Position numbers and translations under genes: made by a program. 36,208 bases of DNA from Planctomycetaceae bacterium (GTDB lineage Bacteria; Planctomycetota; Planctomycetia; Pirellulales; UBA1268). Under the pieces are notes generated by a model. It was not told the origin of the DNA, ran no database searches, and saw nothing but the letters and a program-made list of their open reading frames with translations. Shown piece after piece: positions 12,624 through 29,738 of this stretch. How positions within the stretch are numbered: the stretch's first letter is position 1; every line of letters starts with the position of its first letter. Location: the NCBI GenBank assembly GCA_027486095.1, contig JAIXPT010000351.1, positions 1 to 36,208 on the forward strand. Reading direction: 5' to 3'.

Positions 12624-15600
12624 TCAGGAAAACCGCAGACCCTTGGCGGCTTTGGCGTTGACCGCGCCCATTCGGTTGCCGGTGACGGCGTTACCCTGCA
12701 CGAGCGAGTCATTCGAAACTCCGCTCGCCAGCAGCCCGAAGCCGCCATTGGTGTGAATCGTGTTGCCTGCGTAAGGCGTCGCGCCGCCTATCGTGATCCC
12801 CCTGGCGGCCACGAGAACCACGCCGTTTCCTGCATTGCCGCTGATCGTGTTGCCCTGCACACGCGTGCCGGCGAGGTTGCCGCTGGCCTGAATCCCCGTG
12901 GAGTAGGCTTTCCAGGCCGTCGAGTTGATGATGCGATTGCCCGCATTGACGGCCGTGCCTCCGAGGAGAAGGTTGGTCGCGCCGTCGAGTACGACGCCGT
13001 AACGGGCGTTGGCATCGAAGGTGTTGTTTTGCACCCGCGTGCCGGCGTAGCTGCCTGCGTCGAACGAAATTCCCGTACCGTTGCCGCGGCTGATGACGCC
13101 GGTAACGGTCGAGTTCGTCGAACCACCGGCAAACCGGATGCCACTGCCGGAGAAGTTTTGGATCGTGCGCGAGCCGATGCCCAAAGCCGAAAACATGAAG
13201 TTATTGACGCCCTTGCCGATCGTCAGGCCGTTCGTTCCGAGTGCTGTGCCCGTGCCGTTCAACTGGAAGGCTCCGTTCACCGCGACACTCGCCGCCCGCG
13301 ACACGGCGAGGCCTTTGAGTGCCGTCGTCGTGCCGACGGCGTCGGCAAACGTGATCGCGCCGCCGGCCGCCAGCGAGAGACTGGCGGCGCCGTTCACCGT
13401 TCCGTTGAAGCTGATCCCCGCACCGGCGGTGAGCGCCGAGTTTGCCAGCAGGGTCACGGGCCCAGCGTAGGCCTGTGAACCCCCACTGGTTGTGACTCCG
13501 GCCGCAAACCGCGTGCCGCGGGCGGGATCGGTGGCACTGGTCGTGATCGTGACACTCCCCGATCCCTTTGCAGTGATCGGCTTGCCGATCATGACGAGGT
13601 CCGTCGCCCCGGCATGAGTGTCGATCGTGAACGACTGGTTGGCGGAGCCCCTCGTGACGGCGGCCAGGTTGATACCGGCCCCACCGATCGTGATGCCATC
13701 CGCGCCACCGCTGCCGACGATGGAGATGCCGGCGAAGGCTGTGAACACGCCGAGGTTCACGGCGACGGTTTTCGCCGCTGAGTTGACCGTGACACCCGGC
13801 ATTCCTCCACCGACCGCCGCCATGCTGCCAGGCTGGACGGCGGTGATCGTCAGGACGTGATTCCTGGCGTCGTAGGCAGTGTGCAGGCTGCTGATGACAA
13901 CGCCCATCGGCGCGAGTGTCAGCACGACCCGGTTGGCAGAAGCGCTGACGGCGACGGCATCGGTCTGCGTGATCGTCAATGTGAAAACCTGGGTTGCCGC
14001 GGGATTGATCCCGTTGGCGGCGATAACGGTCACGGCATACGCGCCGGCTGTTCCGGCGGCAGGCGTGCCGGAAAGCAGGCCGCCGGTCGAGAGCGTCACG
14101 CCCGCCGGCAACGTGCCTGAAAAGCTGAACGTCGGCGCCGGATAGCCGGTGGCCACGAATTGGAAGCTGCCGGCGATGCCGGTGGCGAACGTGGCTGCCG
14201 CCAGAGATGTGATCGCAGGCGCGGTGAAGGGTGTTCCCTGCTGGATCACCTCCTGGCTCTCGGCCACTTCGGTGATGCTGGCCGCTGCATTCGCGGCCGT
14301 ATTGGCCAGCACGAGCCCAGTCACGAGTGCGGCTGGCGGCGGCGTCGTGGTGCTGCCGACCGTGACCGTGAGCACGCTTGTCAGCATGGCGCTGCTCTGC
14401 AAATCGACGGTCGCGGTGGGCGAAGCGGTGATCAAGGCTGCAAGGTTCCCGAGCGTTGCGCCGGTGTCGATCCCATTGTTCGTCGAGACGACGATCAGAT
14501 TGGCGACGGTGGCTGCGGCTTTTTGCACCTGGAGAGCCGTGGCGTCGCCGGCCGTCTGGGCCAGCGGATCGTAGGTGGTGAGATCGATCGCGGCCGGCAG
14601 CCCGAGCGCCATCCGCACGGCGGCCACGGCTGCGGCCGGCGCCAGGCTGGCCTGCTTGATCGTCGCCGCGACGAGCGTCGTGAGCGGATTGACGATCGTC
14701 GAGCCGGCAGGAGCGGACAGCGAGCCGGTGAAGGCCATGCCCGTCGAGATGTCGGTGCCGCCGATCGTGACGAGCGTCGCTGCCGGATCGCCGAAGTCGA
14801 ACGAGAAGTTGCCACCGGCGTCGGTCGTGGTCCAGGCCTCCCCTTCGCCCGCATCCCAGACGCCGTTCATCAAACCGGCATCGATCCAATCGCGAAGCGC
14901 GTTGGCATTGGAGTCGGCGAAGAGCGTGGCTCCGGCGAGATAGCCGTCTGCAACGGCGCCGGCGAGCGTGTCGGCGGCGCCCGTGATGCGAAACGACACG
15001 CTTCTGGCGGTGCCGTCGAGCGCACGAATGACGAACACGTCGGTCTGAATCGTGCCGGCCCGCAGTGCCTGCACCGCGTGTGCGCTGTTGAAAGCCTTGT
15101 AGACGTAGTTGCCGCTCGTATCGACCGAGAGCGAGCCGAGGTTCGTCTGGCCGTCTGGGGCGGTGACGGTTGTTCGGAACGCCGCTTCGCCCGCATCGGG
15201 ATCCACGACCGAAAACCGGCCGGTCGCGGACAGGAAGCCAGCTCCGTCCACCGCGACATCCTCGACGAACTCGTTGGCAAACGGCTCGGGCAGGCTGATG
15301 GCGGCGGCCTCGTTGACGTTGCTGACCGTGATCGCGAAGAACCTCTCGTGGGTGAGCCCACCGGCATCGGTCGCGCGGACGCGGACGGCATAGCTGCTCT
15401 TGGTCTCGAAGTCGAACGACGCGACTGTCTTGAGGGTGTTCCCGGCAATCGTGAAGGCGGCGTTGTCGGTGTCGCCCGTGCCCGCGACGAGCGTGTAGGT
15501 GAAGGTGTCGCCGGCATCATCGTCTATGGTGGAGAGTGTGCCGACGGCCGTGCCGCCGGGAAGATTCTCGGGCGTCGTCGCGGTCGAAAGCGCGATGGTG

Positions 15601-18600
15601 GTGGGTGCGTCGTTCACGCTCACGACCGTGATCGCCACCATGTCGGTGTCGGTGAGCACGCCGCCGGATCCAGAGCCTCCGAGGTCAGATGTGGCGAGCG
15701 TGAGGAGATCGCTGCCGTGGAAGTGGGCGGCGGGTCGGTAGACGAGGCCGGCGAGGGCGGCGTTCACGTCGCTCCGGGTGCCGCTGAAGACGAGCGTTGC
15801 GTCGGCGGTGCCGTCGCCGGTGGTAAAGGTCAGGCCCGTCGTGCCAGCGAGCGTGAGGGCGCCGTTCGTCACCGAGAGCGCGATCTCGATCGGCAGGCTC
15901 CCGACGTCCAGGTCGGCCACCGAGATCAGAGTACCGTTGCCGGCCGAGAAGACGAGATCGGTGTCTTCGTCGATCGTCTGGGACGCTGGCACCGTGTTGA
16001 CCGGCGCATCGTTCACCGCCGAAACAAGCACCGACAACGGCACGGCGACGGGGGAATCGAGGCCGCCGTCGTCGCGAGCGACGACGGTAAAGGCGGCAAG
16101 CGTACCCGAGGCATTTGCGGCCGGCGTCCAGTAGGCCTGCTGTCCGGCCCTGATCACGGCATTGGTGGTGGCGGCCCAGGGAGTGGCAGTGGCGGCGGAA
16201 GCCCCGATCGTGAGCGTGCCGCTCGTCACTGCCGTGACGACGAACGCCGTGACCGTGCCGTCGATGTCGGCCTGATCGCCGGCCGCCGCCAGCGCTGCGA
16301 ACGTGAGCTCCGCCTGCGTATCTTCGGCGGTCGTGCCGACCACCAGCGGGAATGAGGAGAGCGACGGCGCGTCGTTCGCAGAGGCGACCGACACGCGATA
16401 CGTGACCGGCGTCGTGGACTCATTGCCACCGTCGTCGCGGGCGACGACCGAGAAGGCTTCCAGCAAGCCGAACGCATTCGCGTCCGGCGTCCAGAAGGCC
16501 TTCAGGGTGTTGGTGATCAGGTGGTTGGTCGTGGCGTTCCACTCCGTGGCCATGGCGGCGGAACTGCCGATCACCAGCCGGCCGCTCTTCACCTGGGTGA
16601 CCACGAAGGCCGTGACGGTGCCGTCCACATCCGCCTCGTTGCCGGCCGCGAGCAGGTCGGCGAAGCTGACCTCGGTGGCCGAGTCCTCGGTGCCCGGGCT
16701 CGCGTGCGACTCGAGCGCCGAGAGCGTCGGGCGGTCGTCCGTCGCGGCGATCGAGATCGTGAGCAGGGCGGCGGTCGTGGCGGTGCCGTCGCTGACGACG
16801 ATCGGGAAGGTCTCGCTCACCGCGGCGGTGGTGGCATTGATCGCGGTGGCGTTTGGCGTAAACGTGTATGCGCCGGTGAGCCGATTGACGACCAGCGTGC
16901 CGTAGCTGCCGGTCTGCGTGAACACGTCACCGGCCGGCGTCACGCCGGTGACGCCAAAGGTGAGGCTGTCGGCATCGACGTCGCTGGCCGTGAATGAGCC
17001 GGAGACCGGTGCGAAACTATCGGCGCCGATCGTGTCGATGAACGTGATCTCGACGGGCGACAGCGCGGGGGCGTCGTTGACGGGCGTGACGGCGATCTGG
17101 ACGGTGACCGGCGTCGGCGAACTTGCGCCGCCGTCGTCGCGGACGACGACCGCGAACGCGGGCAGCGTGCCGTTGGCATCAGCGGCCGGTGTCCAGTAGG
17201 CGTTCTGGGTGGCATCGACGAGGCTGTTCGAGTCGGCGTCCCACGGCAGGGCCGAGGCGGAATCGGCACCGATTCGCAGCGTGCCGCCGGCGAGGCTCGT
17301 GACGACGAACGCTACCACCGTGCCGTCGAGATCCGTCTCGTTTCCGGCGGCCAGCAGCTCGGCCAACGTGATCGAGACCTCGGTGTCCTCGTTCACGGTC
17401 TTGAGCGGCCTGCTGCTGAGCGAGGAGAACGTGGGGGCGTCGTTGCCGCCGTACACCGTCACCCGCAGGGCGGCGGTGGCCGAGTCGGTGGCGCTGGCCA
17501 CGGTGTAGGAGAAGTCGTCCTGCAGCGTCGCGCCGAGCGGCAGTGCCTGGACGGTGGGATTCGTGTCGTTGACGACGTACACATAGCTGCCGTCGGCGCG
17601 AAGTGTCAGCGACCCGTAGCTGCCTGCCAGGGCCGAGCCGACCGTGCCGGCGCCGCCCGGGCCCGTGACGGCCGTGACGGCGATCGCCGTGCCGTCGTAG
17701 TTCGACTGCCCATCGATCACGTTGCCGACCGCGTCGAAGCCGACGGCCGCGTTCGCGACGCCACCCGCCTCGCCGGCGATATCGGTGACGTCACCCGGAT
17801 CGAAGGACCGCACCCGCACCGCGACGCCGAGCGTGACCGGGGCGTAGTTCGCAGAGTCGGTGGGCGTGAAGACGACGTCCTGGCTGGCCGTCCCGGAGCC
17901 CGGGGCAAGCGACGTGTCGGCAAAGGCAAAGGTGCCGGGCACGCTGCTCGTGCCGCCGGAGAGGATCGCGTTTGCGAGCGACTGGCCCGCGCGGATCGAC
18001 GTAGACGTGGGTGGAGCGGTCACACTCGGAGTGGCCCGGATCACGAGCACGTCCACACTGGCCGTGATGGGGGCGTAGTTGACCGTGTCGGTCGGCGTGA
18101 ACGTCACGCTCCGGGCCGCAGTGCCGGCCGTGGGGGCCGTGCCCGGGGCCATGAACGCGAACGTGCCGGGCACGCTGGCCAGGCCGCTCGCGAGCTCGGC
18201 CGAGGCGAGCGTCTGGCCGTAGGCGATCGTGGTGGCCGTGGGGAGCGTGACGAGCGTGGGCGTGGCCTGGGCCACCGCCACAGAGACGGGCAGCGTGACA
18301 GGCAGGTAACGGGCCGTGTCGGTCGGAGTGAACACGACCGTCTGCGACGCCGTGCCGGCGTTGGGGATCGTTGCCGGGGCGGCGAACGCGAACGAGCCAT
18401 CGACACTGGCCGCGCCGCCGCTCAAGGTCGCCGACACGAGCGACTGGCCATAGGTGATGCCGGCAGCTGTCGGGGCCGACGCGATCGCGGGCGAGGCCTT
18501 GGCAATCGTGAAGGCGAGCGTCTTCGTGGCGGCGAAGTCGGGATCGGTACCGGTCACCGTGACGGAATAGTCGCCCGGCTCAGTCGGGGGCGTGGCGCTG

Positions 18601-21600
18601 GCGGCGTAGGTCGTGCTCTCGCGGCCTGTGTAGGTCGTGGAGAAGGCGAAGCTGGCGGAGTCAGCGGCCAGCAGCGGCGTGATTTCGGGCACCGATACCC
18701 CGGCACCGGAAGGAGTGCGATAGATCTCGCCGTTGACCCGATGGGCACCGTAGCTGCTGCGCTGCCCCCACCATACCACCGAGCCATCCGCCCGGATCGC
18801 ATACGTCGCATCGCTGCTGGCATCGATCGCGACGACGTTCGCGAGGTTCCAGGGCACGAGATTTCCATTCCAGCCGGTGGGCGTGAAGCTCGTGCCGCCG
18901 CCCCAGGCCACGACCGTGCCATCGGCCTTGAGGGCGACCGTGTGGTTCTCACCCGCCGCGACGGCCACCACACCGGAGAGGCCCACAGGCACGGTCGCCT
19001 GGCCGCTGGTGTTCTTACCCCAGCACACGACCGTGCCATCCGCCTTGAGGGCCGCGATCGGGCCGTAGGAACTGGCGCTCAGGGCCACCACACCGGCGAG
19101 GCCGGCCGGAATGTCCATCTGGCCGTAGGCGTTCGTGCCCCAAGCCACGACGGTGCCATCCGACTTGAGCGCGAAGGAACTCGACACGGATCCGGCGATG
19201 GCGACCACGCCGGTGAGCCCTGTCGGCACGTTGCGTTGACCGGAGGAGTTGTCTCCCCAGGCCACGACGGTGCCGTCTGCCTTGAGCGCGAGCGAATGGC
19301 TGGTGCCACGGGCGATGGCGACCACGCCCGACAGCCCGGCCGGCGCGGTGCCCATCCACAACGAGCCCCACTCGACGACGGTGCCATCTGCCTTGAGGGC
19401 CATCGCGGAGCCCTCGCCGGCGGCCACGGCCACGACACCGCTGAGGCCGGCGGGCACATTGAGCTGGCCCATTGAATTGTCACCAAACGCCCCGACCGTG
19501 CCGTCGGACTTCACGACCAGGAAGTGACCGTAGTTGCCAGCCGACACGAGTGAGCCACGGGCCACGCGAAACGCCTTGGGCGAGCCGTCGTACGTGAGGC
19601 TGGGGGGCGGCACGAGCGCCACGTTCAGCGGGCTGGCGACGCCGTCGTAGACCGTGAGCGGCACGAGGATCGTGACCGCCGCGTAGCTGGCGATGTCGTC
19701 GGGCACGAACGTCACGCTCTGCCGCGCGGTGCCGGGGTTCGGCACGGTCAGCCGCGAGGAGTAGACGAACGTGCCCGGGACACTCGCCACACCGCTGGAA
19801 AGCGTGGAGGCCTGGAGCCGCTGGCCGAAATTGAGGGCCGCAGCCGTGGGCGGCGTCAGGATCGTAGGCACAGCAGCGGACACGCCCTGAGACCGCACCG
19901 TCACCGTCGCCGCCACGCTTGCGTAGTTGACCGAGTCGGTCGGTGTGAACGTGATCTCCTGGGTCGTCGAGCCGGCCGAGGGAATGAAGCCGGGCGACGT
20001 GAAGGCAAACGTGCCCGGCACGCTGCCGACGCCGCCATCGAGAACGGCCGCCGAGAGGGCCTGCCCCTCGGTGATGATCGCGGCCTGCGGCAGCGTCGTG
20101 ATCGCGGGCGTGGCCTTGGCGATCGTGAAGTCGGCCGTGCGGCTGGCCGAATAGTTGGGGTCGGTCGAGGTGACCGTGACGGCGTAATTGCCGGCGTTGG
20201 TCGGCGCGGTTGCACTCGCCGCGTAGGTGGTGCCAGCCCGTCCGGCATAGCTGACGCTATGCGCGGGGAAGCCGATGCCCGTGGCGAGGCTCGTGCCGTC
20301 CACGGTGGTCACCGTGCCGTCGGACTTGAGCAGCCGCAGGTTGCCGTTGGCATCGGATGACATGGCGACGACGCCGCTCCCCGGGGCCACAAGCTGCCTG
20401 CCGGCGGCGGGGCCGGTGGACTGCATGCCCCAGCCCACGATGGAGCCGTCGGCTTTGAGCGCGAACGACGAGCTATAGCCGGCCGTAAGGGCCACGACAC
20501 CGTTCAGGCCTGCGGGGACCGTCGCCTGGCCGACAGAGTTGTTGCCCCACGCCACGACGGTGCCATCCGCCTTGAGGGCCAGCGAGTGGGTGCCCCCGGC
20601 GGCGATCGCCATCACGCCGGTGAGGCCGGCTGGCACATCAGACTGGCCGTAGTTTTGAGAGCTACTGAAGCCCCAGGCAGCCACCGTGCCGTCCGACTTG
20701 AGCGCTACGGCATGCGACCAGCCCGCGGCGACGGCGGTGACGTTCGCGAGGCCTTCCGGCACGTTGGCCGCTGAGGTGATGCTGCTTTGGCCGAACACAG
20801 TGACCGTGCCGTCGGCACGAAGCACGACGGTGTGAACTCCGCCTGCGGCCACGGCGGTGGCATTGGTGATCTGGCTGATCGGAAACACGAGCGGGCTGAA
20901 GCTCACGGGATAGCCGGTCCGATGCCAGGAGCTGTTGGAGCCCCAGCCCACGAGCGTGCCGTCCGACTTCACGGCCACCGAGTGGTAGGCCCCTGCCGAC
21001 ACCTGCACGACGCCGGAGAGCCCGCCTGGCACGCTGGTCTGACCCTCGGAATTGCTGCCGAAGGCCGTGACCGTGCCATTCGTGTTGAGCGCGACCGAGT
21101 GATCCCAGCCGCTCGAGAGGTACGCCATCTGTGACACGACGAACTGCTTGGCTGTGCCGTTGTAGACGAGCGGCGGCGGCACGAGCGAGATCGGCAGCGA
21201 CGTCGTGGTCACCTGGAGGGGCCTGCTCGTCGTGACCGACGTGTAGTTCAGGGTGTCGGTCGGTGTGAACACGGCCTCGAGCGTGCGGGCCCCGGCGGCG
21301 AGCACGGTGCCGGAGGCCGGCGTATAGACGAAGCTGCCTGCCACGCTCGCGGTGGCGTTCTGCTGCGTGGCCGAGAGCGCCGTGCCGTAGGCGATGTTCG
21401 CCGGCGTGGCCCAAGTGACCGTCGGCACGGCCTGCGTGATCGTGAAGGTGCGGGTGGCGCTGCCGGCGAAGTTTGGGCCTTGGACCGTCGCAGTGACAGC
21501 ATATGACCCGACGTTGGTCGGCGCCGTGGCAGAAGGGCCGTAGGTCGTGCCGGCCACGCCCGAGTAGGTGCGGGTGGTGAAGAGCGATGATCCCGACGGG

Positions 21601-24600
21601 CTTTGTGCGTTGCTGCCAAAGAACTTCGGCGAACCGCTGTACACGAAGTTGGCGGGCGATGTGAACGTAAACGCACTGGCCGGAATCACCAGCGCATCGA
21701 CGGTCACGGAAACCGTGCTCGCTGCCGTCGCGTAGTTGACGGTGTCGGTCGGTGTGAACACGACGTCATACGACCACGTGCCGACGCCCGGGGAGGTGCC
21801 GCTGAACGCAAAGGCGAAACTCCCCGGTACGCTCGCGGTGCCGCCGGAGAGCGTCGAGGACGCGAGTGTCTGGCCGAACGTGAGCGCGGAGGCCGTCGGG
21901 GCCGCCGTGATCGCGGGCACGGCCTTGGCGACCGTGAAGTCGAGGCTCTTCGAGCCCTGGTAGTTCGGGTCGTTGATGGTCGCCGTGACGGTGTAGTCGC
22001 CGGCATAGGTCGGGGCGACGCTGCTCGGCCCATAGGCCGTGGTGCCGCGGCCGGAGTAGCTGAAGGTGAAGCCCGCGACGCCGGTCGCTGAGGCTGAATA
22101 GGCCTTGGCTGCGCCGGTGTAGGTGAGGCTCGCGGGCGGAGTCAGCGTGATGCTGCCAGCGGCGACCGTGGCCTTCTGCACCGTGATCGTGCTCGTGGCG
22201 ACGGCGGGATTAAAGTTGACGGAGTCGGTCGGGACGAACGTCAGTTGCAGCGTGTGGGTGCCGGCTGGCAGCACGGTGCCGATCGCCGGGGAAAAGGTCG
22301 TCGTGCCGGGGATCTGCGTGAGCGTGCCCTGGTTCCACCACCAAGAAGGCAGCGTATCGACCTGGTCCGACGTGAGCGCCGCGCCGTAGGTGATCGTGCT
22401 GGTCCGGGTGTAGTAGACGGGCGCCGGCGTCACCTTGGCGATCGTGAAGTCGCGGCTCACACCCACCGTGTTGCCCGACGCAGAGGCCGTGGCCGTGACG
22501 GTGTAGTCGCCCGCGTTGGTCGGCGGCGTGGCCGAGGCGGCGTACGCTGTCGCGCCGCGGCCCTGGTAGCTGTAGGTGTAGCTATTGAGCATTCCTGCAG
22601 CGGTCGGGCCGAACGTGGCGGGCGGCGTCTGCTGGCCGTAGCGAATCCAGCCAAACGTCACGACGGTGCCGTCGGATTTCAAAGCGATGGAGTGCTCGGC
22701 ACCGGCATCGATCGCCACCACGCCGGAGAGCCCGGCCGGGATCACCGTGGAGCCGTAGTTGTCGCGGTCGCCCCAGGCCACGATCGTGCCGTCGGCCTTG
22801 AGCGCGAGCGAAAAACTCGTGCCAGCCGACACCGCCACCACGCCCTTGAGGCCTGCGGGCACGCTGCTCTGGAAGGAGCCATTGTTGCCCCAGGCGACCA
22901 CGGTGCCGTCGCTCTTGAGGGCGAGGCTGTGCCACTCGCCGGCAGAGATGGCGACGACGTCGGTGAGCCCGGCGGGGGGCGTGGCGTAGTTGTAGAAGCC
23001 GTAGCCCCAGGCCACGACCGTGCCGTCGCTTTTGAGCGCCAGGCTGTGGGTCGAGCCGGCGGCGATCGCCACGACGCCCGTGAGGCCGGCCGGCACGTTC
23101 GTCTGGCCGCCGGAATTCGAGCCCCACGCCACGACGGTGCCATCGCTCCTGAGGGCCAGGCTGTGCACTCCGCCGGCCGCGATCGCGACGACGTTCGAAA
23201 GCCCGGCCGGCACGGTGGACTGCGACGCGAAGTTGTTGCCCCACGCCGCGACCGTGCCATCCGACTTGAGGGCCAGCGTGTGATAGCCGCCGGCCGACAC
23301 GGCCACGACGTTCGTGAGGCCCAAGGGCACGGTCGTCTGGCCGTCCTGATTGGTGCCGAAGGCCGCCACGGTGCCGTCTGCTTTGAGCACCGCCGAGTGG
23401 AGCGTGCCGCCCGAGATGAACGGGAGCGGGTTGGCGGCCGAGGCGTAGCCCTGGAAGGCTTTCGGCGTTGCGTCGTACGTGAGGGTCGATGGGGCGTAGA
23501 GGCCGATGGCCGGCACGACCTCACGGTTGGCCAGGCCATAGATGCTGAATGCCGCCGACGGCACGGCGAGCGTGATCGTCACCGACCCTGCGGCGTCGGC
23601 GAGGTACTGGTAGTCGATGCGAACGCCGTTGTCGGTGCCGAGCGTATTTTGATCGACCGTGAGCTGGCCCATCGCCGACGAGAGCGTGGCCAGCCGTGCG
23701 GTGGCGTCGCGGCCGACGGTGTAGAGCGAGAGCACGTAGCGGCCGCCCGGCGCAAGGCCGCGGAGCGTGACCGACGCGGAGGCCGCCGACGTGCTGACGG
23801 CGTCGCCTGCGAGGCTGCGCGACGCATCGGCGAGATTGTTGGCATCGCCCGTGACCACGGCGCCGAAGCCGGTCGTGGACAGTCGGCCCGTGACCGCCGG
23901 GTTCGCGCCGGCGAGTCCCGTGAAGGTCAGGCCGTTGACGGCGAAGCTGCCGACGGCGCCGAAGCTGTAGGCGTGCGTGTAGTTATAGAGCGTGGAGATG
24001 CCGCTCGACGCGGCGTCGGTCCAGGGCCGCACCCGCCAGCGGTCGCCGTCCACGCGAACCTGGATGGCCGTCGCAGAGGCGGCCTGGCCGTCCCAGGCCT
24101 TCACGGTAAACGCATTCCGCAGGCCGGAGGTTCCGGCGGCCGGCGTCCAGCGGAGTTTCTCGCCGGTGGCGATGAGCGTGGTGCCGGCGGTCACGGCCGT
24201 CCAGGACGAACCGTTCCATTTTTCGAGCGCGCCGGTGGAGACGGCCTCGATCCGGAAGGCGATTCCGTCGGATTCAAGGTCGGCGGCGTTGGCCGCGTTG
24301 GCGAGTGTCGCGTAGGTGATCTCAAAGGGGTCGCTGGCGGTGGCCCCCGAGATGACGGCCACGCTCGTGAGCGTGGGGCTGTCGTTGACCGCGGCGACGG
24401 AAACGACCGCCTGCGCCGGCGTGAGCGATTCCAGGCCGCCGTCGTCGCGGGCCACCGCCGTGAAGGCCGACTGAGCGCCGTTGGCATTGGCGGCGGGCGT
24501 CCAATAGGCGTTGAGGCTGGAGGTGATGGCGGCGTTGGTCGTCGCGTTCCAGGGGGTCGCGGTGGCGTCGCTCGTGCCAATCCGGAGCGTGCCCGTCGTC

Positions 24601-26315
24601 ACCGATTTGACGACGAACGCGGTCACGCTGCCGTCGATGTCGGCCTCGTCGGCGGCTCCAAGGAGCGCGGCCAGCGAGATCGGGACGACGGTGTCTTCGG
24701 TGCCCGAAGCCACCGGCCCCGAAAACTGTGAAAACGTTGGCCGATCATTGACCGCCCCGACGGAGACGCGAACCGTCTTCGCCGTCGCGGAGAGGAGCGC
24801 GCCGTCGGAGGCCTTCACGGTGAAGGCGTCGAGCGTGCCATTGACGGTGGGCGGCGGCGTCCACACGAGGCTCTCACCGGGGGCGAGCAGCGTGGAGCCT
24901 GTTGTGACAGGGGTGCCGTTCTTCGTGAGCGTGCCCCCGAGCAGCGACTCGATCCGAAAGGAGAGCGGGTCGTTGTTGGGGTCGGATTCATCGAGCGCGG
25001 CCGCGAGCGCGGCATGGGTGATCGTGAAGGGCGTGCCCTCCGTGGCCCCGGAGAGGGCCGCCGGGGTGGCGCTGGCGAAACTCGGCGCCTGATTCGTGAC
25101 CGTGACGGCGATCGTGTGCGTGGCAGTGGCAAAGCCGTTGGTGGCCTGCAGCACGACGTTGTAGTTCCCCGCCGTACCGGTCTCGGGGATGCCGAGGATC
25201 ACGCCGCGCGAGTCGATCGACACGCCCCGCGGGAGGTTCGTGGCCGAATACCGGATCGTGGGCGTGCCGAAGGCGTTGCTCACCACATACATCTGGTTCT
25301 GCCATTGGCCCACCGGCACCGTGAGCGTGGACGGCATGCCGAGGTAATAGGGAGCCGCAATCGGCAGATTGATCGGGTCTGGCTCCTGCCAGCTCGTGGG
25401 GAATCCCCGGCGGGCACTGACCGAAACCTCGTTGTTGCCGATCCTCAGCGGGACCGTGGCGGCGAGCGCCTTGCCGTTGCCGGCCTCCATGTATCGAGAG
25501 GCCACCTCCTGGCCATTGACATACATGTAAACCCAGCCGAAGTCCGACAGATGCCCGCCGGCGTAGTAGAACCGCCCGCGGAGATCGAACGACATCCGGA
25601 TGGTGGCCGTGCCATCCATGTTGTTGGTCCAGCTCGTGATCTGCTGGTTGATCGTGTAGGCCTCGAGCGACATGTCGGCCCGCTCGTAGTCGGCCGCCGC
25701 TGCCAGCAGGCCGCTCGTCACGTCACCGACGTGAAACTCGAGCATCTCGTCGCCACCGACGCCGGTGCGGTTGGAGCTTGCGGCTACATCGGCGGCTGTC
25801 AGCTCGGCGAGCGACTGCACGAATCGTCGCCCTGTGTCGGTGCTCGCGACCGAGCAGCCGTAGAGCAGGATGTCGCCGTCGGCCGAGAGCGACTGCCGCC
25901 AGCCGGCGACGTCTTCCGCGCGGGTGGCAAAAGTGGCCGAGTCGATCCGCTGATCTCCGAACCAGAGGCTGCCGTCGCTACCGTGGGAGATCACGCGGAC
26001 GACGTCGATATTTGACAGGCCGGCCAAGGCCGTCGAGATCTGGTCGATCGCGTCGCGGCTCGAGTCGATGGCCACGAGGAGCGAGCCGGAGAGTTCTTCC
26101 TGGGGAATGCTCGCGACGAGCGCAGAGTCGATGATCACCACACCCGCAGTCGCGGCGGGATTTTGGGCCGCAGCCAGGAGCTGGCGCAATTCGAGCGGCT
26201 CGAGACGCATCCCGGCCAGACGGCTGCCATGGCTGCGCCGTCTCCGACGCGCGGTGCGCCCGCCAAAGAGTCCGGCACCGCGATGTCTCTGTTTTTTACC
26301 GCCAGAGTTACGCAT
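12624..26315 (-). CDS. Giant multidomain surface protein (DUF4347, MBG, RCC1, cadherin-like, beta-helix)
   Basis: A 4563-residue protein, probably at the cell surface or secreted. Residues 1-35 are strongly basic, followed by LEPLELRQLLAA, resembling the planctomycete LEPR-XLL region; there is no ordinary signal peptide. DUF4347 spans about 58-195 (VVRVISHGSDG, ILLYGCSVAS). Then come Ig/cadherin-like repeats (about 330-750), an unassigned beta-sandwich (about 750-930), and three MBG domains each holding a seven-unit RCC1 block (about 940-1290, 1705-2070, 2230-2610). Eight copies of a FTPTD-type repeat lie between and after these. A VCBS-like part (about 2840-2970), more cadherin-like repeats (to about 3670), an SdrD-B-like segment (about 3785-3850), an Ig-like domain (about 4030-4120) and a parallel beta-helix (about 4370-4563) complete it. 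No PEP-CTERM, sortase or T9SS-type tail is seen. Adhesion is the likely role. Confidence 0.92.
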   Translation of the reverse strand: MRNSGGKKQRHRGAGLFGGRTARRRRRSHGSRLAGMRLEPLELRQLLAAAQNPAATAGVVIIDSALVASIPQEELSGSLLVAIDSSRDAIDQISTALAGLSNIDVVRVISHGSDGSLWFGDQRIDSATFATRAEDVAGWRQSLSADGDILLYGCSVASTDTGRRFVQSLAELTAADVAASSNRTGVGGDEMLEFHVGDVTSGLLAAAADYERADMSLEAYTINQQITSWTNNMDGTATIRMSFDLRGRFYYAGGHLSDFGWVYMYVNGQEVASRYMEAGNGKALAATVPLRIGNNEVSVSARRGFPTSWQEPDPINLPIAAPYYLGMPSTLTVPVGQWQNQMYVVSNAFGTPTIRYSATNLPRGVSIDSRGVILGIPETGTAGNYNVVLQATNGFATATHTIAVTVTNQAPSFASATPAALSGATEGTPFTITHAALAAALDESDPNNDPLSFRIESLLGGTLTKNGTPVTTGSTLLAPGESLVWTPPPTVNGTLDAFTVKASDGALLSATAKTVRVSVGAVNDRPTFSQFSGPVASGTEDTVVPISLAALLGAADEADIDGSVTAFVVKSVTTGTLRIGTSDATATPWNATTNAAITSSLNAYWTPAANANGAQSAFTAVARDDGGLESLTPAQAVVSVAAVNDSPTLTSVAVISGATASDPFEITYATLANAANAADLESDGIAFRIEAVSTGALEKWNGSSWTAVTAGTTLIATGEKLRWTPAAGTSGLRNAFTVKAWDGQAASATAIQVRVDGDRWRVRPWTDAASSGISTLYNYTHAYSFGAVGSFAVNGLTFTGLAGANPAVTGRLSTTGFGAVVTGDANNLADASRSLAGDAVSTSAASASVTLRGLAPGGRYVLSLYTVGRDATARLATLSSAMGQLTVDQNTLGTDNGVRIDYQYLADAAGSVTITLAVPSAAFSIYGLANREVVPAIGLYAPSTLTYDATPKAFQGYASAANPLPFISGGTLHSAVLKADGTVAAFGTNQDGQTTVPLGLTNVVAVSAGGYHTLALKSDGTVAAWGNNFASQSTVPAGLSNVVAIAAGGVHSLALRSDGTVVAWGSNSGGQTNVPAGLTGVVAIAAGSTHSLALKSDGTVVAWGYGFYNYATPPAGLTDVVAISAGEWHSLALKSDGTVVAWGNNGSFQSSVPAGLKGVVAVSAGTSFSLALKADGTIVAWGDRDNYGSTVIPAGLSGVVAIDAGAEHSIALKSDGTVVTFGWIRYGQQTPPATFGPTAAGMLNSYTYSYQGRGATAYAASATPPTNAGDYTVTATASASGNTVGVSRDFTIAKVTPAPVYYTRTSTITYGAALTSDQVDTLPSWWWNQGTLTQIPGTTTFSPAIGTVLPAGTHTLQLTFVPTDSVNFNPAVATSTITVQKATVAAGSITLTPPASLTYTGAAKAYSASATGVAGFTFSYSGRGTTAYGPSSVAPTYAGDYTVTATINDPNYQGSKSLDFTVAKAVPAITAAPTASALTFGQTLASSTLSGGTASVPGSFAFAFSGTSPGVGTWSYDVVFTPTDTVNYATAASTVSVTVDALVIPASAFTFTSPANFVYSGSPKFFGSNAQSPSGSSLFTTRTYSGVAGTTYGPSATAPTNVGSYAVTATVQGPNFAGSATRTFTITQAVPTVTWATPANIAYGTALSATQQNATASVAGSFVYTPASGTVLAAGARTLEAVFTPTDTLNYTSVTTSRPLQVTTTSLPISLVPPPLVYNGTAKQFVVSQMAYLSSGWDHSVALNTNGTVTAFGSNSEGQTSVPGGLSGVVQVSAGAYHSVAVKSDGTLVGWGSNSSWHRTGYPVSFSPLVFPISQITNATAVAAGGVHTVVLRADGTVTVFGQSSITSAANVPEGLANVTAVAAGWSHAVALKSDGTVAAWGFSSSQNYGQSDVPAGLTGVMAIAAGGTHSLALKADGTVVAWGNNSVGQATVPAGLNGVVALTAGYSSSFALKADGSIVGWGMQSTGPAAGRQLVAPGSGVVAMSSDANGNLRLLKSDGTVTTVDGTSLATGIGFPAHSVSYAGRAGTTYAASATAPTNAGNYAVTVTSTDPNYSASRTADFTIAKATPAITTLPQAAIITEGQALSAAVLDGGVGSVPGTFAFTSPGFIPSAGSTTQEITFTPTDSVNYASVAATVTVRSQGVSAAVPTILTPPTAAALNFGQRLQASTLSSGVASVPGTFVYSSRLTVPNPGTARQSVTFVPDDIASYAAVTILVPLTVYDGVASPLNVALVPPPSLTYDGSPKAFRVARGSLVSAGNYGHFLVVKSDGTVGAFGDNSMGQLNVPAGLSGVVAVAAGEGSAMALKADGTVVEWGSLWMGTAPAGLSGVVAIARGTSHSLALKADGTVVAWGDNSSGQRNVPTGLTGVVAIAGSVSSSFALKSDGTVVAWGTNAYGQMDIPAGLAGVVALSASSYGPIAALKADGTVVCWGKNTSGQATVPVGLSGVVAVAAGENHTVALKADGTVVAWGGGTSFTPTGWNGNLVPWNLANVVAIDASSDATYAIRADGSVVWWGQRSSYGAHRVNGEIYRTPSGAGVSVPEITPLLAADSASFAFSTTYTGRESTTYAASATPPTEPGDYSVTVTGTDPDFAATKTLAFTIAKASPAIASAPTAAGITYGQSLVSATLSGGAASVDGSFAFAAPATIPNAGTASQTVVFTPTDTARYLPVTLPVSVAVAQATPTLVTLPTATTIAYGQTLASAELASGLASVPGTFAFMAPGTAPTAGTAARSVTFTPTDTVNYAPITASVDVLVIRATPSVTAPPTSTSIRAGQSLANAILSGGTSSVPGTFAFADTSLAPGSGTASQDVVFTPTDSANYAPVTLGVAVRVRSFDPGDVTDIAGEAGGVANAAVGFDAVGNVIDGQSNYDGTAIAVTAVTGPGGAGTVGSALAGSYGSLTLRADGSYVYVVNDTNPTVQALPLGATLQDDFSYTVASATDSATAALRVTVYGGNDAPTFSSLSSRPLKTVNEDTEVSITLAELLAAGNETDLDGTVVAFVVTSLAGGTLRIGADSASALPWDADSNSLVDATQNAYWTPAADANGTLPAFAVVVRDDGGASSPTPVTVQIAVTPVNDAPALSPVEITFIDTIGADSFAPVSGSFTASDVDADSLTFGVTGVTPAGDVFTQTGSYGTLVVNRLTGAYTFTPNATAINATTAAVSETFPIVVSDGTATTAALLTISIAATDDRPTLSALESHASPGTEDSATEVSFADLLAAGNEADVDGTVTAFVVTQVKSGRLVIGSSAAMATEWNATTNHLITNTLKAFWTPDANAFGLLEAFSVVARDDGGNESTTPVTYRVSVASANDAPSLSSFPLVVGTTAEDTQAELTFAALAAAGDQADIDGTVTAFVVTAVTSGTLTIGASAATATPWAATTNAVIRAGQQAYWTPAANASGTLAAFTVVARDDGGLDSPVAVPLSVLVSAVNDAPVNTVPASQTIDEDTDLVFSAGNGTLISVADLDVGSLPIEIALSVTNGALTLAGTTGLTFTTGDGTADATLVFSGTRSDVNAALAGLVYRPAAHFHGSDLLTLATSDLGGSGSGGVLTDTDMVAITVVSVNDAPTTIALSTATTPENLPGGTAVGTLSTIDDDAGDTFTYTLVAGTGDTDNAAFTIAGNTLKTVASFDFETKSSYAVRVRATDAGGLTHERFFAITVSNVNEAAAISLPEPFANEFVEDVAVDGAGFLSATGRFSVVDPDAGEAAFRTTVTAPDGQTNLGSLSVDTSGNYVYKAFNSAHAVQALRAGTIQTDVFVIRALDGTARSVSFRITGAADTLAGAVADGYLAGATLFADSNANALRDWIDAGLMNGVWDAGEGEAWTTTDAGGNFSFDFGDPAATLVTIGGTDISTGMAFTGSLSAPAGSTIVNPLTTLVAATIKQASLAPAAAVAAVRMALGLPAAIDLTTYDPLAQTAGDATALQVQKAAATVANLIVVSTNNGIDTGATLGNLAALITASPTATVDLQSSAMLTSVLTVTVGSTTTPPPAALVTGLVLANTAANAAASITEVAESQEVIQQGTPFTAPAITSLAAATFATGIAGSFQFVATGYPAPTFSFSGTLPAGVTLSTGGLLSGTPAAGTAGAYAVTVIAANGINPAATQVFTLTITQTDAVAVSASANRVVLTLAPMGVVISSLHTAYDARNHVLTITAVQPGSMAAVGGGMPGVTVNSAAKTVAVNLGVFTAFAGISIVGSGGADGITIGGAGINLAAVTRGSANQSFTIDTHAGATDLVMIGKPITAKGSGSVTITTSATDPARGTRFAAGVTTSGGSQAYAGPVTLLANSALTAGAGISFNGTVNGAASLSLAAGGAITFADAVGTTTALKGLAVSRAASVAVNGAFQLNGTGTALGTNGLTIGKGVNNFMFSALGIGSRTIQNFSGSGIRFAGGSTNSTVTGVISRGNGTGISFDAGSYAGTRVQNNTFDANARYGVVLDGATNLLLGGTAVNAGNRIINSTAWKAYSTGIQASGNLAGTRVQGNTISGNAGNGVVLVAARGITIGGATPYAGNTIHTNGGFGLLASGVSNDSLVQGNAVTGNRMGAVNAKAAKGLRFS
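18490..19615 (-). repeat. MBG domain with inserted seven-unit RCC1 block, copy 3
   Basis: Within the giant gene. The MBG first strand (PPPSLTYDGSPKAF) is at the high-coordinate end. Seven units of about 37-45 residues follow (pattern VVAIA.G..HSLALKADGTVVAWG), at 18715-19550. The rest of the MBG domain (TYTGRESTTYAASATPPTEP to FTIAKASPAI) follows. Units 2, 4, 5 and 7 are the most divergent. Confidence 0.85.
20105..21195 (-). repeat. MBG domain with inserted seven-unit RCC1 block, copy 2
   Basis: Within the giant gene. The MBG start LVPPPLVYNGTAKQF is followed by seven RCC1 units (20280-21129). The first is MAYLSSGWDHSVALNTNG and the last ends near DGTSLATG. The MBG remainder (SYAGRAGTTYAASATAPTNA to FTIAKATPAI) then resumes. 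Units 2 and 7 are irregular. Confidence 0.85.
22440..23495 (-). repeat. MBG domain with inserted seven-unit RCC1 block, copy 1
   Basis: Within the giant gene. STLTYDATPKAF opens the MBG domain, seven regular RCC1 units follow (22600-23420), and the domain resumes at YSYQGRGATAYAASATPPTN to FTIAKVTPAP. This is the most regular of the three blocks. Confidence 0.87.
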
Positions 26316-26500: not shown

Positions 26501-27301
26501 TTAGCGACGAAACGCCCGAAATGGCTCGTAGATTCGCAGGGAAAGCAGGACCTCGCTCGCGGTGAAGGCCGATGTGTAGTCGCCAGCCGGGCTGCCGTCC
26601 CCCAAGACGAGCGGTGTCGAAGCCGTGCCGACCCCGACAAAACGGTAGCCCAGATCGAGCGTGATCTGCGGACTCAGGGTGTAGGTCGCGCCGGCCCCCG
26701 CCTGCCAGGCAAACTGCGAGACGTTGCCGGCCCCACTGACGATCGCCGACGGCTCCTCCACCGAGAGCCGATAGCCTGCGGCTCCGATACCGCCGCCGCC
26801 ATACACGCCAAACCGGGTGGTGAGGGAAAGGTCGCGCCAGAGATTCGCCATCGCCGACCAGCTGTCGGCCGCGGCCACGGCGAAGGGCTCAACGCTCTCG
26901 GTCTGCCCCAGAAGCCGCTCACGACCGCGTCCCTCCACCTCCGCCCGCAAAAGCCCGGAGGGACGGTCGAAGGCGACGCCGATCGCGCCGCCGGCGGAAA
27001 ACAGATCGTCCGATGCCGTGCCCGTATTTGGCGTGGGGACGCCGGCCGTATTCATTCCGCCGCTCGCAAGCGAGGCGAACGACGCGCCGACGATGCCGGA
27101 AACGTACAACCGCCGTACGGCGAAACTCTCCTCCACGGCTGCGAGGGCATCGACTGTTGCAGCGGCAGTGGCATCCACAAAAGACCCACCCGGCGGCTGG
27201 ATGAGGCCACCGGCGGAATCGTCATCGGCGAAGGCAATAGCGGCGCCAGCAGCGGCGAGCATCCCGAGCAAACCGCAGCGAAAAATGCGTCCGCCAGACA
27301 T
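26501..27301 (-). CDS. Outer-membrane beta-barrel protein
   Basis: A 266-residue protein with a Sec signal peptide (CGLLGMLAAAGAAIAFA) and alternating amphipathic strands typical of an eight-stranded OmpA/OMP_b-brl barrel. Examples are LYVSGIVGASFAS, FGVYGGGGIGAAGYRLS, QAGAGATYTLSPQITLDLGY and SEVLLSLRIYEPFRAF. The final strand ends in aromatic/arginine residues, as needed for BAM insertion, with a short basic tail. Role (structural or transport) is not readable. GGGGGAAGC precedes ATG 27301, and that ribosome site lies in a hairpin at 27308-27335. A terminator follows at 26421-26462. Confidence 0.85.
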   Translation of the reverse strand: MSGGRIFRCGLLGMLAAAGAAIAFADDDSAGGLIQPPGGSFVDATAAATVDALAAVEESFAVRRLYVSGIVGASFASLASGGMNTAGVPTPNTGTASDDLFSAGGAIGVAFDRPSGLLRAEVEGRGRERLLGQTESVEPFAVAAADSWSAMANLWRDLSLTTRFGVYGGGGIGAAGYRLSVEEPSAIVSGAGNVSQFAWQAGAGATYTLSPQITLDLGYRFVGVGTASTPLVLGDGSPAGDYTSAFTASEVLLSLRIYEPFRAFRR

Positions 27302-27307
27302 GCTTCC

Positions 27308-27335
27308 CCCAGCAGGAATATCGACTGTTGCTGGG
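27308..27335 (-). promoter_or_regulatory. Hairpin sequestering the ribosome site of the beta-barrel gene
   Basis: In the 5' leader, CCCAGCA (27329-27335) pairs with TGCTGGG (27308-27314) across a 14-base loop. The 3' arm runs into the GGGGG of the ribosome site, seven bases from ATG 27301. The fold could limit translation until opened; no known riboswitch class is recognised. Confidence 0.4.
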
Positions 27336-27388
27336 AGGGGCAGCGGCCAAAGCCCTACCGTCGGCGCGACCGTTTCGTTCGACTTTTC

Positions 27389-28486
27389 TTAACGCACCAC
27401 CCGTGCCCCGCCGCCCTTGATTTGTTTCTCGACCTCGGCCCGGGTGGCCATCGAGGTGTCGCCCGGGGTGGTGCTCGCGAGGGCGCCGTGGGCGGCGCCG
27501 TATTCAACCGCCTTCTGCGGGCAGTTGAACTCCAGAAACCCGAAGGCCAGGCCGCTGGCGAAGCTGTCGCCGCCGCCGACGCGGTCGAGGATCTCGAGCT
27601 CGGGATATTTGCGGCTGTCGTAAAACGTCCCCTCGTGCCAGCAGATCGCGCTCCAGTCGTTCTTCGTGGCCGTGATCACGCGGCGAAGCGTCGTGGCCGC
27701 CACCTTGAAATTGGGAAACTCCTTCACGGCCTTCTCGATCATCTTCTTGAAGGCGTCGGTCTCGATCTCGCTGATGGCATGATCGACTCCCTCGACCTCG
27801 AACCCGAGCGAGGCCGTGAAGTCTTCCTCGTTGCCGATCATCACATCGACGTACTTCGCGATCTCGCGATTGACCTCGCGGGCCTTCGCCTGGCCGCCGA
27901 TGCTCTTCCAGAGGCTCGGGCGGTAATTCAGGTCGTACGACACGACCGTGCCATGCTTCTTCGCCGCCTTCACAGCCTCGACCGTGAGCGCCGCCGTCGT
28001 CTCCGAGAGGGCCGCGAAGATGCCGCCGGTGTGAAACCAGCGCACGCCGAGCTTTCCAAAGAGATGCTCCCAATCCACGTCGCCCGGCTTGAGCTGGCTG
28101 GCCGCCGTGTTGCCCCGGTCGGGCACGCCGACGGCGCCACGGATACCGAAGCCCCGCTCGGTGAAGTTGAGCCCGTTGCGCACGCTCCGCCCGATGCCGT
28201 CATCCGCCCGCCACTGGATGAAATCGGTGCACACGCCCCCCTGCATGATGAAGTCTTCGATGAGGTGCCCCACCTCGTTGTCCACGAACGCCGTGACGAC
28301 GGCCGTCTTCAAACCAAAACACTTCCGCAGGCCGCGGGCCACGTTGTATTCGCCGCCCCCTTCCCAGGCGTCGAAGTGGCGGGCCGTGCGGATTCGCCCC
28401 TCGCCGGGATCGAGGCGGAGCATGATCTCGCCGAGCGAGACTTCGTCGAACGTGCAGGCTTCACGAGCTTTTAAGGGGAGGGCCAA
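27389..28486 (-). CDS. PfkB-family sugar kinase (2-keto-3-deoxygluconate kinase-like)
   Basis: A 365-residue ribokinase-fold enzyme that should phosphorylate a sugar or sugar acid with ATP. It opens with VSLGEIMLRLDPGEGRI, then GGGEYNVARGL (sugar binding), and near residue 300 DRVGGGDSFASGLAFGF, the PfkB anion-hole and catalytic-base motif. The KdgK-like assignment is from overall resemblance and the two dehydrogenases upstream; other PfkB substrates are possible. The start is TTG 28486: a GGAG site lies eight bases upstream, and the next in-frame ATG would remove the first conserved strand. A palindromic element lies between it and the Ldh gene. Confidence 0.85.
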   Translation of the reverse strand: MALPLKAREACTFDEVSLGEIMLRLDPGEGRIRTARHFDAWEGGGEYNVARGLRKCFGLKTAVVTAFVDNEVGHLIEDFIMQGGVCTDFIQWRADDGIGRSVRNGLNFTERGFGIRGAVGVPDRGNTAASQLKPGDVDWEHLFGKLGVRWFHTGGIFAALSETTAALTVEAVKAAKKHGTVVSYDLNYRPSLWKSIGGQAKAREVNREIAKYVDVMIGNEEDFTASLGFEVEGVDHAISEIETDAFKKMIEKAVKEFPNFKVAATTLRRVITATKNDWSAICWHEGTFYDSRKYPELEILDRVGGGDSFASGLAFGFLEFNCPQKAVEYGAAHGALASTTPGDTSMATRAEVEKQIKGGGARVVR

Positions 28487-28548
28487 CGGTGTGTCTCCGA
28501 CTTCAGATGTGGGTTTGATCGCAATTTGCGGTGGGCTCGCGCTTTCCT

Positions 28549-28632
28549 GGAAGCCCGAGGCGTGAGCCGAAGGGAATTCGCGTGGCTTTGTCGTGCGAGG
28601 CAGTCCTCTCGGCTTACGCCTCGGGCTTTCGG
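28549..28632. repeat. 84-bp palindromic element, copy 2
   Basis: The left arm starts at 28549 (GGAAGCCCGAGGCGTGAGCC) and the inverted arm ends at 28632, around a centre of about 35 bases. It is closely similar over its full length to 5536-5619. It lies between the Ldh-family and kinase genes of a likely operon, where it could affect mRNA processing. Confidence 0.82.
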
Positions 28633-28645
28633 ATAGCGGGATGCG

Positions 28646-29734
28646 TCAAGCGGTGGGAAGAGTGTCGATGTTGAATGCTGGCAGTCCTGCCTCGTGGGCG
28701 ATTTCGTTGAGGGCTTCGACTTCGGCCTTCGAGAAAAGCAGCCCCCCCGCCCTCTCGCTGCGGGCGGCGGCCTCGGCCTCGAGCTGGCCCGGGAGCATGC
28801 ACTGCTCGTTGCCATGGCCGAGGATATCGGCGAGCACGGCCTTCACGTTTTCGGCCTGCGAGCGGCCTTTTGCAAACACGCCGCTTGAAATCGCATCCGG
28901 ATGGATCACCTGGAAGAAGAACGCGCAGTTTTGCTTCTCCCCTGGAACGGCCGCGCGGCTGCGGAGCGTCGGGAGCGAGCCGCCGATGAACGCTGCCACG
29001 ATCTCGTTGATGAGCGAGAGCCCGTAGCCCTTGTGGTCGCCGAACGGGATCAGCGACACGGCCTTGTCGGGGTCGGTGGTCGGCTGGCCGTCCTTGTCTA
29101 CGGCGGCGTTCGGCGGCAGCGGCTTGCCCTCACGCCGAAACTGCTGCACGCGGCCCATCGCGATCACGCTCGTGGCCCAGTCGATCACGATCGGAAAGCC
29201 CACGGCCGCCGTCGTGGGAAAGCCCCACGAGTGCGGGTTGGTGCCGAGCGTGGGAAACTTGCCCTTGAACGGCACCACCTCGGCGAGCGACGCCGTGCAG
29301 TTCGTGTAGGCGATGTAGCCATTCTTCGCAGCCTCCATCACGTAGCCGCCGCCCCACAGATAGTGGAAGGCGTTGTCGATCGAGACCGTGCCCGTGCCGT
29401 AGGTGTCGGCGAGCTTCATGCAGGTGTCGAGCGCCTCCCAGGCGACGGCCTGGCCCAGCTTCTTGTTGCCGTCCCAGATCTCAGCCGCCTTGAACCGCGT
29501 GGGCACCTTCTTGATCGCCGCCTGGGGTGTGCAGCCGCCGGCCTTCGAGCCGAAGAGTTCGTCGAGGTGCAGGGCCTTGATCGCGTTGTGGGTGCGGATG
29601 CCGTGCTTCGTCGCGGCCGTCGCGAGCTTCGCGGCGTGCTCGGCCTCGGCGGCGTCGAAGCCCCGCTTCAGATAGGCCCCGCGCACGATCGCCTCGTGGG
29701 TGGCGACGGGGACGACATGAAATGTTTCAGGCAT
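28646..29734 (-). CDS. Ldh-family (malate/L-lactate type) NAD(P)-dependent dehydrogenase
   Basis: A 362-residue member of the L-sulfolactate/malate/ureidoglycolate dehydrogenase fold, which has its own NAD-binding architecture and no classical Rossmann motif. Visible family regions are ATKHGIRTHNAIKALHLDEL (the conserved H-G-x-x-x-H pattern near the N-terminus), GTNPHSWGFPT, IDWATSVIAMG and PFGDHKGYGLSLINEIV. The likely reaction is reversible oxidation of a 2-hydroxyacid to a 2-oxoacid; the substrate is unknown. ATG 29734 lies four bases after the stop of the D-2-hydroxyacid dehydrogenase gene, indicating co-transcription. The kinase follows 159 bases downstream, with a palindromic element between. 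Confidence 0.9.
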   Translation of the reverse strand: MPETFHVVPVATHEAIVRGAYLKRGFDAAEAEHAAKLATAATKHGIRTHNAIKALHLDELFGSKAGGCTPQAAIKKVPTRFKAAEIWDGNKKLGQAVAWEALDTCMKLADTYGTGTVSIDNAFHYLWGGGYVMEAAKNGYIAYTNCTASLAEVVPFKGKFPTLGTNPHSWGFPTTAAVGFPIVIDWATSVIAMGRVQQFRREGKPLPPNAAVDKDGQPTTDPDKAVSLIPFGDHKGYGLSLINEIVAAFIGGSLPTLRSRAAVPGEKQNCAFFFQVIHPDAISSGVFAKGRSQAENVKAVLADILGHGNEQCMLPGQLEAEAAARSERAGGLLFSKAEVEALNEIAHEAGLPAFNIDTLPTA

Positions 29735-29738
29735 GTTG

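Follow-up and report, generated by a model that had tools for sequence, protein, structure and literature searches.

Seven-bladed RCC1/BLIP-II-type propellers nested within MBG domains of a giant planctomycete protein

A contig of 36,208 nucleotides from a Planctomycetaceae bacterium (GCA_027486095.1, JAIXPT010000351.1; hereafter the window) encodes a giant protein in which immunoglobulin-like (Ig-like) MBG domains stand next to arrays of RCC1 repeats. The question raised by this locus is whether three of these MBG domains are each split by a complete propeller, or whether propellers and Ig-like domains simply follow one another along the chain. The source is a fragmented planctomycete metagenome-assembled genome (MAG) of 3.77 Mb in 456 contigs, of which the window is contig C300. 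Our analysis favours, at a probability of about two in three, a secreted adhesin-like stalk of Ig-like domains, three of whose MBGs carry complete seven-bladed propellers of the BLIP-II/RCC1 type as binding side heads. We regard the observation of propellers nested in MBGs as real and confirmed, and the nesting itself as well supported.

Split and uninterrupted MBG domains

Repeat counting gave three blocks (A, B, and C) of exactly seven RCC1 units apiece, and no units elsewhere in the giant protein. This bears out the sequence-only reading that preceded our work, in which three MBGs were each interrupted by seven such units. In the Pfam search RCC1_2 reached a total of 427 bits, with 14 stretches passing individually, and WD40_RLD reached 369 bits against a cut-off of 150. 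An MBG left strand lies directly N-terminal of each block and the right part follows directly after it, while in the two uninterrupted (bare) MBGs, M1 and M2, which were found where that reading had placed them, the two parts are 11–15 residues apart. The interruptions had been put at 260–290 residues; when measured between conserved strands, they are about 290 (A), 294 (B), and 308 (C), and block C has a long exit linker.

The bare MBGs scored 41–47 bits to the MBG_3 profile (PF18887). The right halves of B (42.1 bits) and C (27.6 bits) were above the cut-off and that of A (20.1 bits) was below it, and their match began only at profile position 26–32. A custom profile was built from the uninterrupted MBGs of relatives, none of the window copies being among them. 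Against this profile the right half gained 8 bits (A), 11 bits (B), and 18 bits (C) when the left strand was placed in front of it; background windows of the same protein did as well in 11 out of 3810 cases for A, 0 out of 3828 for B, and 0 out of 3810 for C. With Pfam, the joined halves covered profile positions 11–72 (B), 10–72 (C), and 31–70 (A). No solved relative of the MBG domain was found by sequence.

Two AlphaFold models were obtained, one of residues 930–1470 (block A, the next Ig-like domain, and bare MBG M1; 16 rows) and the other of residues 1700–2615 (blocks B and C; 9 rows). The first had a mean predicted local distance difference test score (pLDDT) of 85, with most blades of block A at about 90–95, and contained seven three-stranded blades at construct residues 38–58, 74–97, 113–136, 152–175, 191–214, 230–253, and 270–293. 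The strands of nested MBG A (8–11, 17, 26–29, then 317–323, 332, 340–350, and 353–364 in construct numbering) and those of bare M1 (461–463, 469, 478–480, then 487–494, 502, 510–518, and 526–534) represent the same strand elements with the same motif positions. Each half of both domains has an isolated single-residue bridge (T17 and S332 in nested A, T469 and S502 in M1). Because these bridge residues are matched in the nested and the bare domain, the two halves are most simply modelled as paired across the insertion. The second model (pLDDT 67) showed seven-blade closure of B and C and the strand pattern of the bare MBG, at lower confidence. The earlier proposal that each block would be one closed seven-bladed propeller, presented on a loop of a small beta domain, is therefore in agreement with the models: all three blocks have seven three-stranded blades and the halves take up the bare-MBG pattern.

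In a Foldseek search the best PDB match of both models was BLIP-II, with a template modelling (TM) score of 0.82–0.85 (target-normalised), a root-mean-square deviation of 1.5–1.8 Å, and an identity of 42–46% over about 250 residues. Foldseek gives one best alignment per target, so that the second model has a single value and not one for each of B and C.

Table 1. Features of the giant gene and of the adjoining barrel gene, in window coordinates.
Feature	Position	Strand	Remarks
Block A, MBG left part	23445..23495	−	LTYDATPKAF strands, residues 941–957
Block A, seven-unit RCC1/BLIP-II-type propeller	22623..23435	−	residues about 961–1231
Block A, MBG right part	22425..22589	−	residues 1243–1297
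Uninterrupted MBG M1	21915..22151	−	MBG_3 profile 9–71
Uninterrupted MBG M2	21423..21668	−	MBG_3 profile 22–71, left strand present
Block B, MBG left part	21135..21194	−	LVYNGTAKQF
Block B, seven-unit propeller	20292..21134	−	residues about 1728–2008; last unit degenerate
Block B, MBG right part	20106..20276	−	MBG_3 profile 32–72
Block C, MBG left part	19560..19625	−	SLTYDGSPKAF
Block C, seven-unit propeller	18756..19559	−	residues about 2253–2520, then a linker of ~30 residues
Block C, MBG right part	18489..18659	−	MBG_3 profile 26–72
Giant gene	12624..26315	−	single open frame, 4563 codons / 4563 aa (open reading frame and Pfam)
DUF4347 domain, N terminus	25695..26141	−	Pfam 5e-37
Outer-membrane beta-barrel gene	26501..27301	−	Pfam OMP_b-brl; directly upstream of giant gene

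Orthologues and other host domains

Orthologues of the giant protein were found in three genomes of the same genus and in two others of the family, G049 and G496, which makes six out of 72 family genomes including the source. Three more occur in the MAGs L029 and L030, labelled Verrucomicrobiota, and L032, labelled Planctomycetota; small-subunit rRNA was sought in these three for phylum placement and none was present. The leader of the L029 and L030 proteins differs from the planctomycete LEP-type leader, and both are nearer to the G002 protein than L032 is; transfer between phyla is possible (the comparison is unrooted). In G001 (L106:4187–5009) and L032 (7883–8004) the gene runs over two overlapping frames, owing either to a frameshift or to an assembly error.

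Blocks 2 and 3 of the orthologues have seven units wherever they are intact. Block 1 has seven in the window and in L029, and 14, that is two propellers inside one MBG, in G049, G002, G001, and L030; in L032 ten clear units and a degenerate stretch are compatible with 14, and the G003 contig holds only part of the block. The second propeller of block 1 is orthologous between L028 (the same contig as G002) and L030, with a unit identity of 71% for matched versus about 53% for mismatched units. Therefore, 14 units look like the ancestral state, from which one whole propeller would have been lost on two occasions. The blocks gain or lose whole propellers. Collapse of 14 units into seven during assembly of the window was considered and is unlikely: identity between the first and second propellers is only about 57%, and L029 has seven independently.

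Between the window and G049 the propellers are conserved block by block, with a unit identity of 83–92%. The ratio of nonsynonymous to synonymous substitution rates (dN/dS) for this pair is 0.14–0.24 in the propellers and 0.12–0.28 in the nested MBG right halves. Both are under purifying selection. In a tree of the MBG right halves (57 columns), the nested copies stood apart from the bare ones with a support of 92/85; rows L029_1449 and L030_3249 are bare MBGs that the distance rule had labelled otherwise. This separation favours one insertion in an ancestor, after which the module was duplicated as a whole. The unit register between paralogous propellers gave a signal from the terminal units only.

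Among 392 genomes of the phylum, RCC1-type matches were present in 86, with an RCC1–MBG junction in the source genome only. MBG_3 was present in eight of the 392, and elsewhere it was in tandem with a near-full profile match, except for one partial match in G226.

Nested propellers were also identified in other Ig-like domains. The complete genome of the Verrucomicrobia member IMCC26134 (CP011265.1) has 13 near full-length copies of PF16403 (Bact_surface_Ig-like) and nine that start at profile position 29–36; nine seven-unit RCC1 arrays, distributed over four giant proteins, are each flanked by left and right PF16403 halves. In the two cases tested with a custom profile, the left half alone scored ~26 bits (25.7) and the joined halves 44–45, a level reached by 0 out of 2093 background windows. 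With Pfam, the score rose from 39.9 bits (36–71) for the right half to 48.5 bits (2–71) after joining. PF16403 is likewise the host in the MAGs L057 and L067, where the split copies also rejoin to the full profile. He_PIG (PF05345, 96 positions) is split by a seven-unit propeller twice in L060 and once in L076. Here the test was Pfam on joined halves, the custom profile having one bare copy and being uninformative; joining raised the score from 37.9 bits (42–95) to 45.4 bits (9–93) in L060 and from 29.6 bits (45–95) to 35.7 bits (9–94) in L076. In all three cases the joined halves covered 8–93 or 9–94, as against 41–95 or 45–95 for the right half. In the L090 protein (Kiritimatiellales) a PF16403 right half comes after each of two seven-unit RCC1 arrays, but no left half is recognisable and the custom profile did not confirm one; this is either a degenerate nest or a truncated domain.

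By eye, ten out of 78 fetched loci were nested, most of the others being in tandem or after a leader; these loci had been chosen by similarity to the query, so that ten in 78 is no frequency. A phage collection gave a single weak match in an RCC1 region. The source genome also encodes a stand-alone RCC1 propeller protein (L002:1–1773, contig C226), whose C-terminal region resembles, by eye, the chaperone domain of phage tail fibres (SDRRIKTEIESI motif).

Three nestings in one chain had been proposed from the window. That count stands, but its scope was too narrow, since some orthologues have two propellers per MBG and two more host families exist. We consider it probable, with somewhat less assurance than for the stalk with side heads, that closed RCC1/BLIP-II propellers are modular cargo. 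In bacteria of the Planctomycetes–Verrucomicrobia–Chlamydiae (PVC) group, this cargo would have been inserted repeatedly, always as one or more whole propellers (7 or 14 units), at permissive loops in three or more kinds of Ig-like stalk domain (MBG_3, Bact_surface_Ig-like, and He_PIG), so that the head lies beside the stalk and not in series with it.

The giant gene and its locus

Pfam identified DUF4347, He_PIG, cadherin-like domains, three MBG_3 stretches, RCC1_2, and a C-terminal right-handed beta-helix in the giant protein, and its N terminus has a planctomycete leader of the LEP type. The leader, the Ig-like and cadherin-like domains, the beta-helix, and the neighbouring outer-membrane barrel gene suggest a putative surface fibre. 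The barrel gene also adjoins the orthologue in G002 and, partly, in G003, and its product is a possible anchor or partner of the giant protein.

Relative to G002, the neighbouring pfkB, Ldh_2, and amylase genes are 93–97% identical (window 26501–30722 (−); L216), whereas identity falls to 65% for the giant protein and to 61% for the adjacent barrel protein. The giant protein is nearer to that of G049, which belongs to another genus (77% identity). This difference suggests that, at a fixed locus, the gene changes rapidly or exchanges alleles, much as genes for surface recognition proteins do.

In the C-terminal part (window 12624–14318 (−)), the window and G049 share only 30% identity over 433 aligned residues of 4000–4560, compared with 77% overall, and dN/dS is 0.74; this tail has either been replaced or is changing fast. 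DUF4347 contains SHG and YGC motifs, the latter holding one of only two cysteines in the giant protein, an arrangement which we take to resemble the His-Cys pair of caspase-like (clan CD) peptidases.

Proposed role, rival explanations, and known systems

In the mechanism that we propose, the giant protein would be a secreted, probably surface-anchored fibre of Ig-like modules. The propeller is inserted in one MBG loop, between two strands, and the ends of a closed propeller being neighbours, the host fold would stay unbroken. The stalk would then continue through the MBG fold, and the propeller, a binding fold, would form a side head on two linkers, free to bind a partner and relieved of the load. 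That the protein is at the surface, that it binds a ligand, and that nesting takes the propeller out of the load path are inferences.

Several points weigh against this explanation. The left strand of block A (LTYDATPK) is the weakest by sequence, and the Pfam match does not reach it. The pairing of the halves was read from the strand pattern and the bridge residues, not from contacts directly. The model of B and C is shallow and its MBG part is poorly modelled. The unit register of the paralogous propellers, carried by the terminal units, does not prove that all three derive from one whole propeller. Binding, export, and location of the giant protein are predictions from its sequence.

Three other explanations were weighed. 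The propellers might be structural filler, that is amplified repeats serving as spacers without a specific ligand. For RCC1/BLIP-II propellers, renewed amplification from a single blade is on record (PMC9218822), and the paralogous propellers here retain only a weak unit register. However, the purifying selection on the propellers, their block-by-block conservation, and a unit number fixed at seven or 14 are against it, and we consider filler unlikely. Less probable still is a tandem order, in which propellers and Ig-like domains merely take turns along the chain and the MBG-like strand upstream is either a coincidental match or a degenerate remnant. In the sampled loci, most of the other RCC1 arrays do lie between complete Ig domains or after a leader, and one planctomycete protein (G374, L215) has RCC1 and then an intact MBG. 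But the right halves begin in mid-profile, the left strand adds a significant score, the joined halves span the profile for MBG B, MBG C, PF16403, and He_PIG, and the arrangement is kept in the orthologues examined. An equally improbable explanation makes the propellers secreted inhibitors or binders like BLIP-II, directed at a beta-lactamase or other enzyme, with the stalk as a mere delivery vehicle: the identity and TM score of the BLIP-II match speak for it, but that identity is largely the repeat consensus common to hundreds of RCC1 arrays, the comparison was one of overall fold and repeat, and nothing points to beta-lactamase.

Nesting of propellers as side heads would be a natural way for a long Ig-like stalk to display a globular binding head laterally, and this is seen in three host families. 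Standard domain annotation overlooks the nesting, because the left half goes undetected and the right half is listed as truncated. Bare and split copies in one protein, and orthologues whose shared host carries either one propeller or two, are ready-made pairs that could test the tolerance of a small beta domain for an insertion of 270 to 550 residues, and whether side mounting protects the head when the stalk is pulled. Display scaffolds are another possible use of closed propellers, whose ends are adjacent.

Precedents exist for RCC1 propellers in tandem, for their amplification from a single blade, and for a propeller set inside another domain; the fold here is not new. No paper dealing with both MBG domains and RCC1 was found. 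In literature on propeller insertion, on RCC1 in planctomycetes, and on nested or Ig-like RCC1, the present arrangement was not described, and no published description of the IMCC26134 nested propellers was located; the coverage was partial, and the absence is weak evidence. In the IMCC26134 giant proteins, too, a seven-unit RCC1 propeller splits an Ig-like domain, several times per chain, but their host is PF16403 and the neighbouring repeats are Flg_new_2. The propellers resemble BLIP-II (1jtd, 3qhy, 3qi0) and the RCC1/BLIP-II lineage in having seven three-stranded blades of the same repeat; BLIP-II, however, is a free-standing small secreted protein, whereas here the propeller is inside an Ig-like domain of a giant protein. 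The host has the strands and motifs of MBG_3, including two uninterrupted copies, but three of its copies are split by propellers. In prolyl oligopeptidase, a seven-bladed propeller is inserted in the alpha/beta-hydrolase chain, so that a complete propeller is likewise nested in another domain. That protein is an enzyme whose propeller, of another lineage, gates the active site, and its two domains have been described (PMC12325989). In the giant protein, by contrast, the propeller is of the RCC1 type, its host is a non-catalytic stalk domain, and the arrangement is repeated along the chain.

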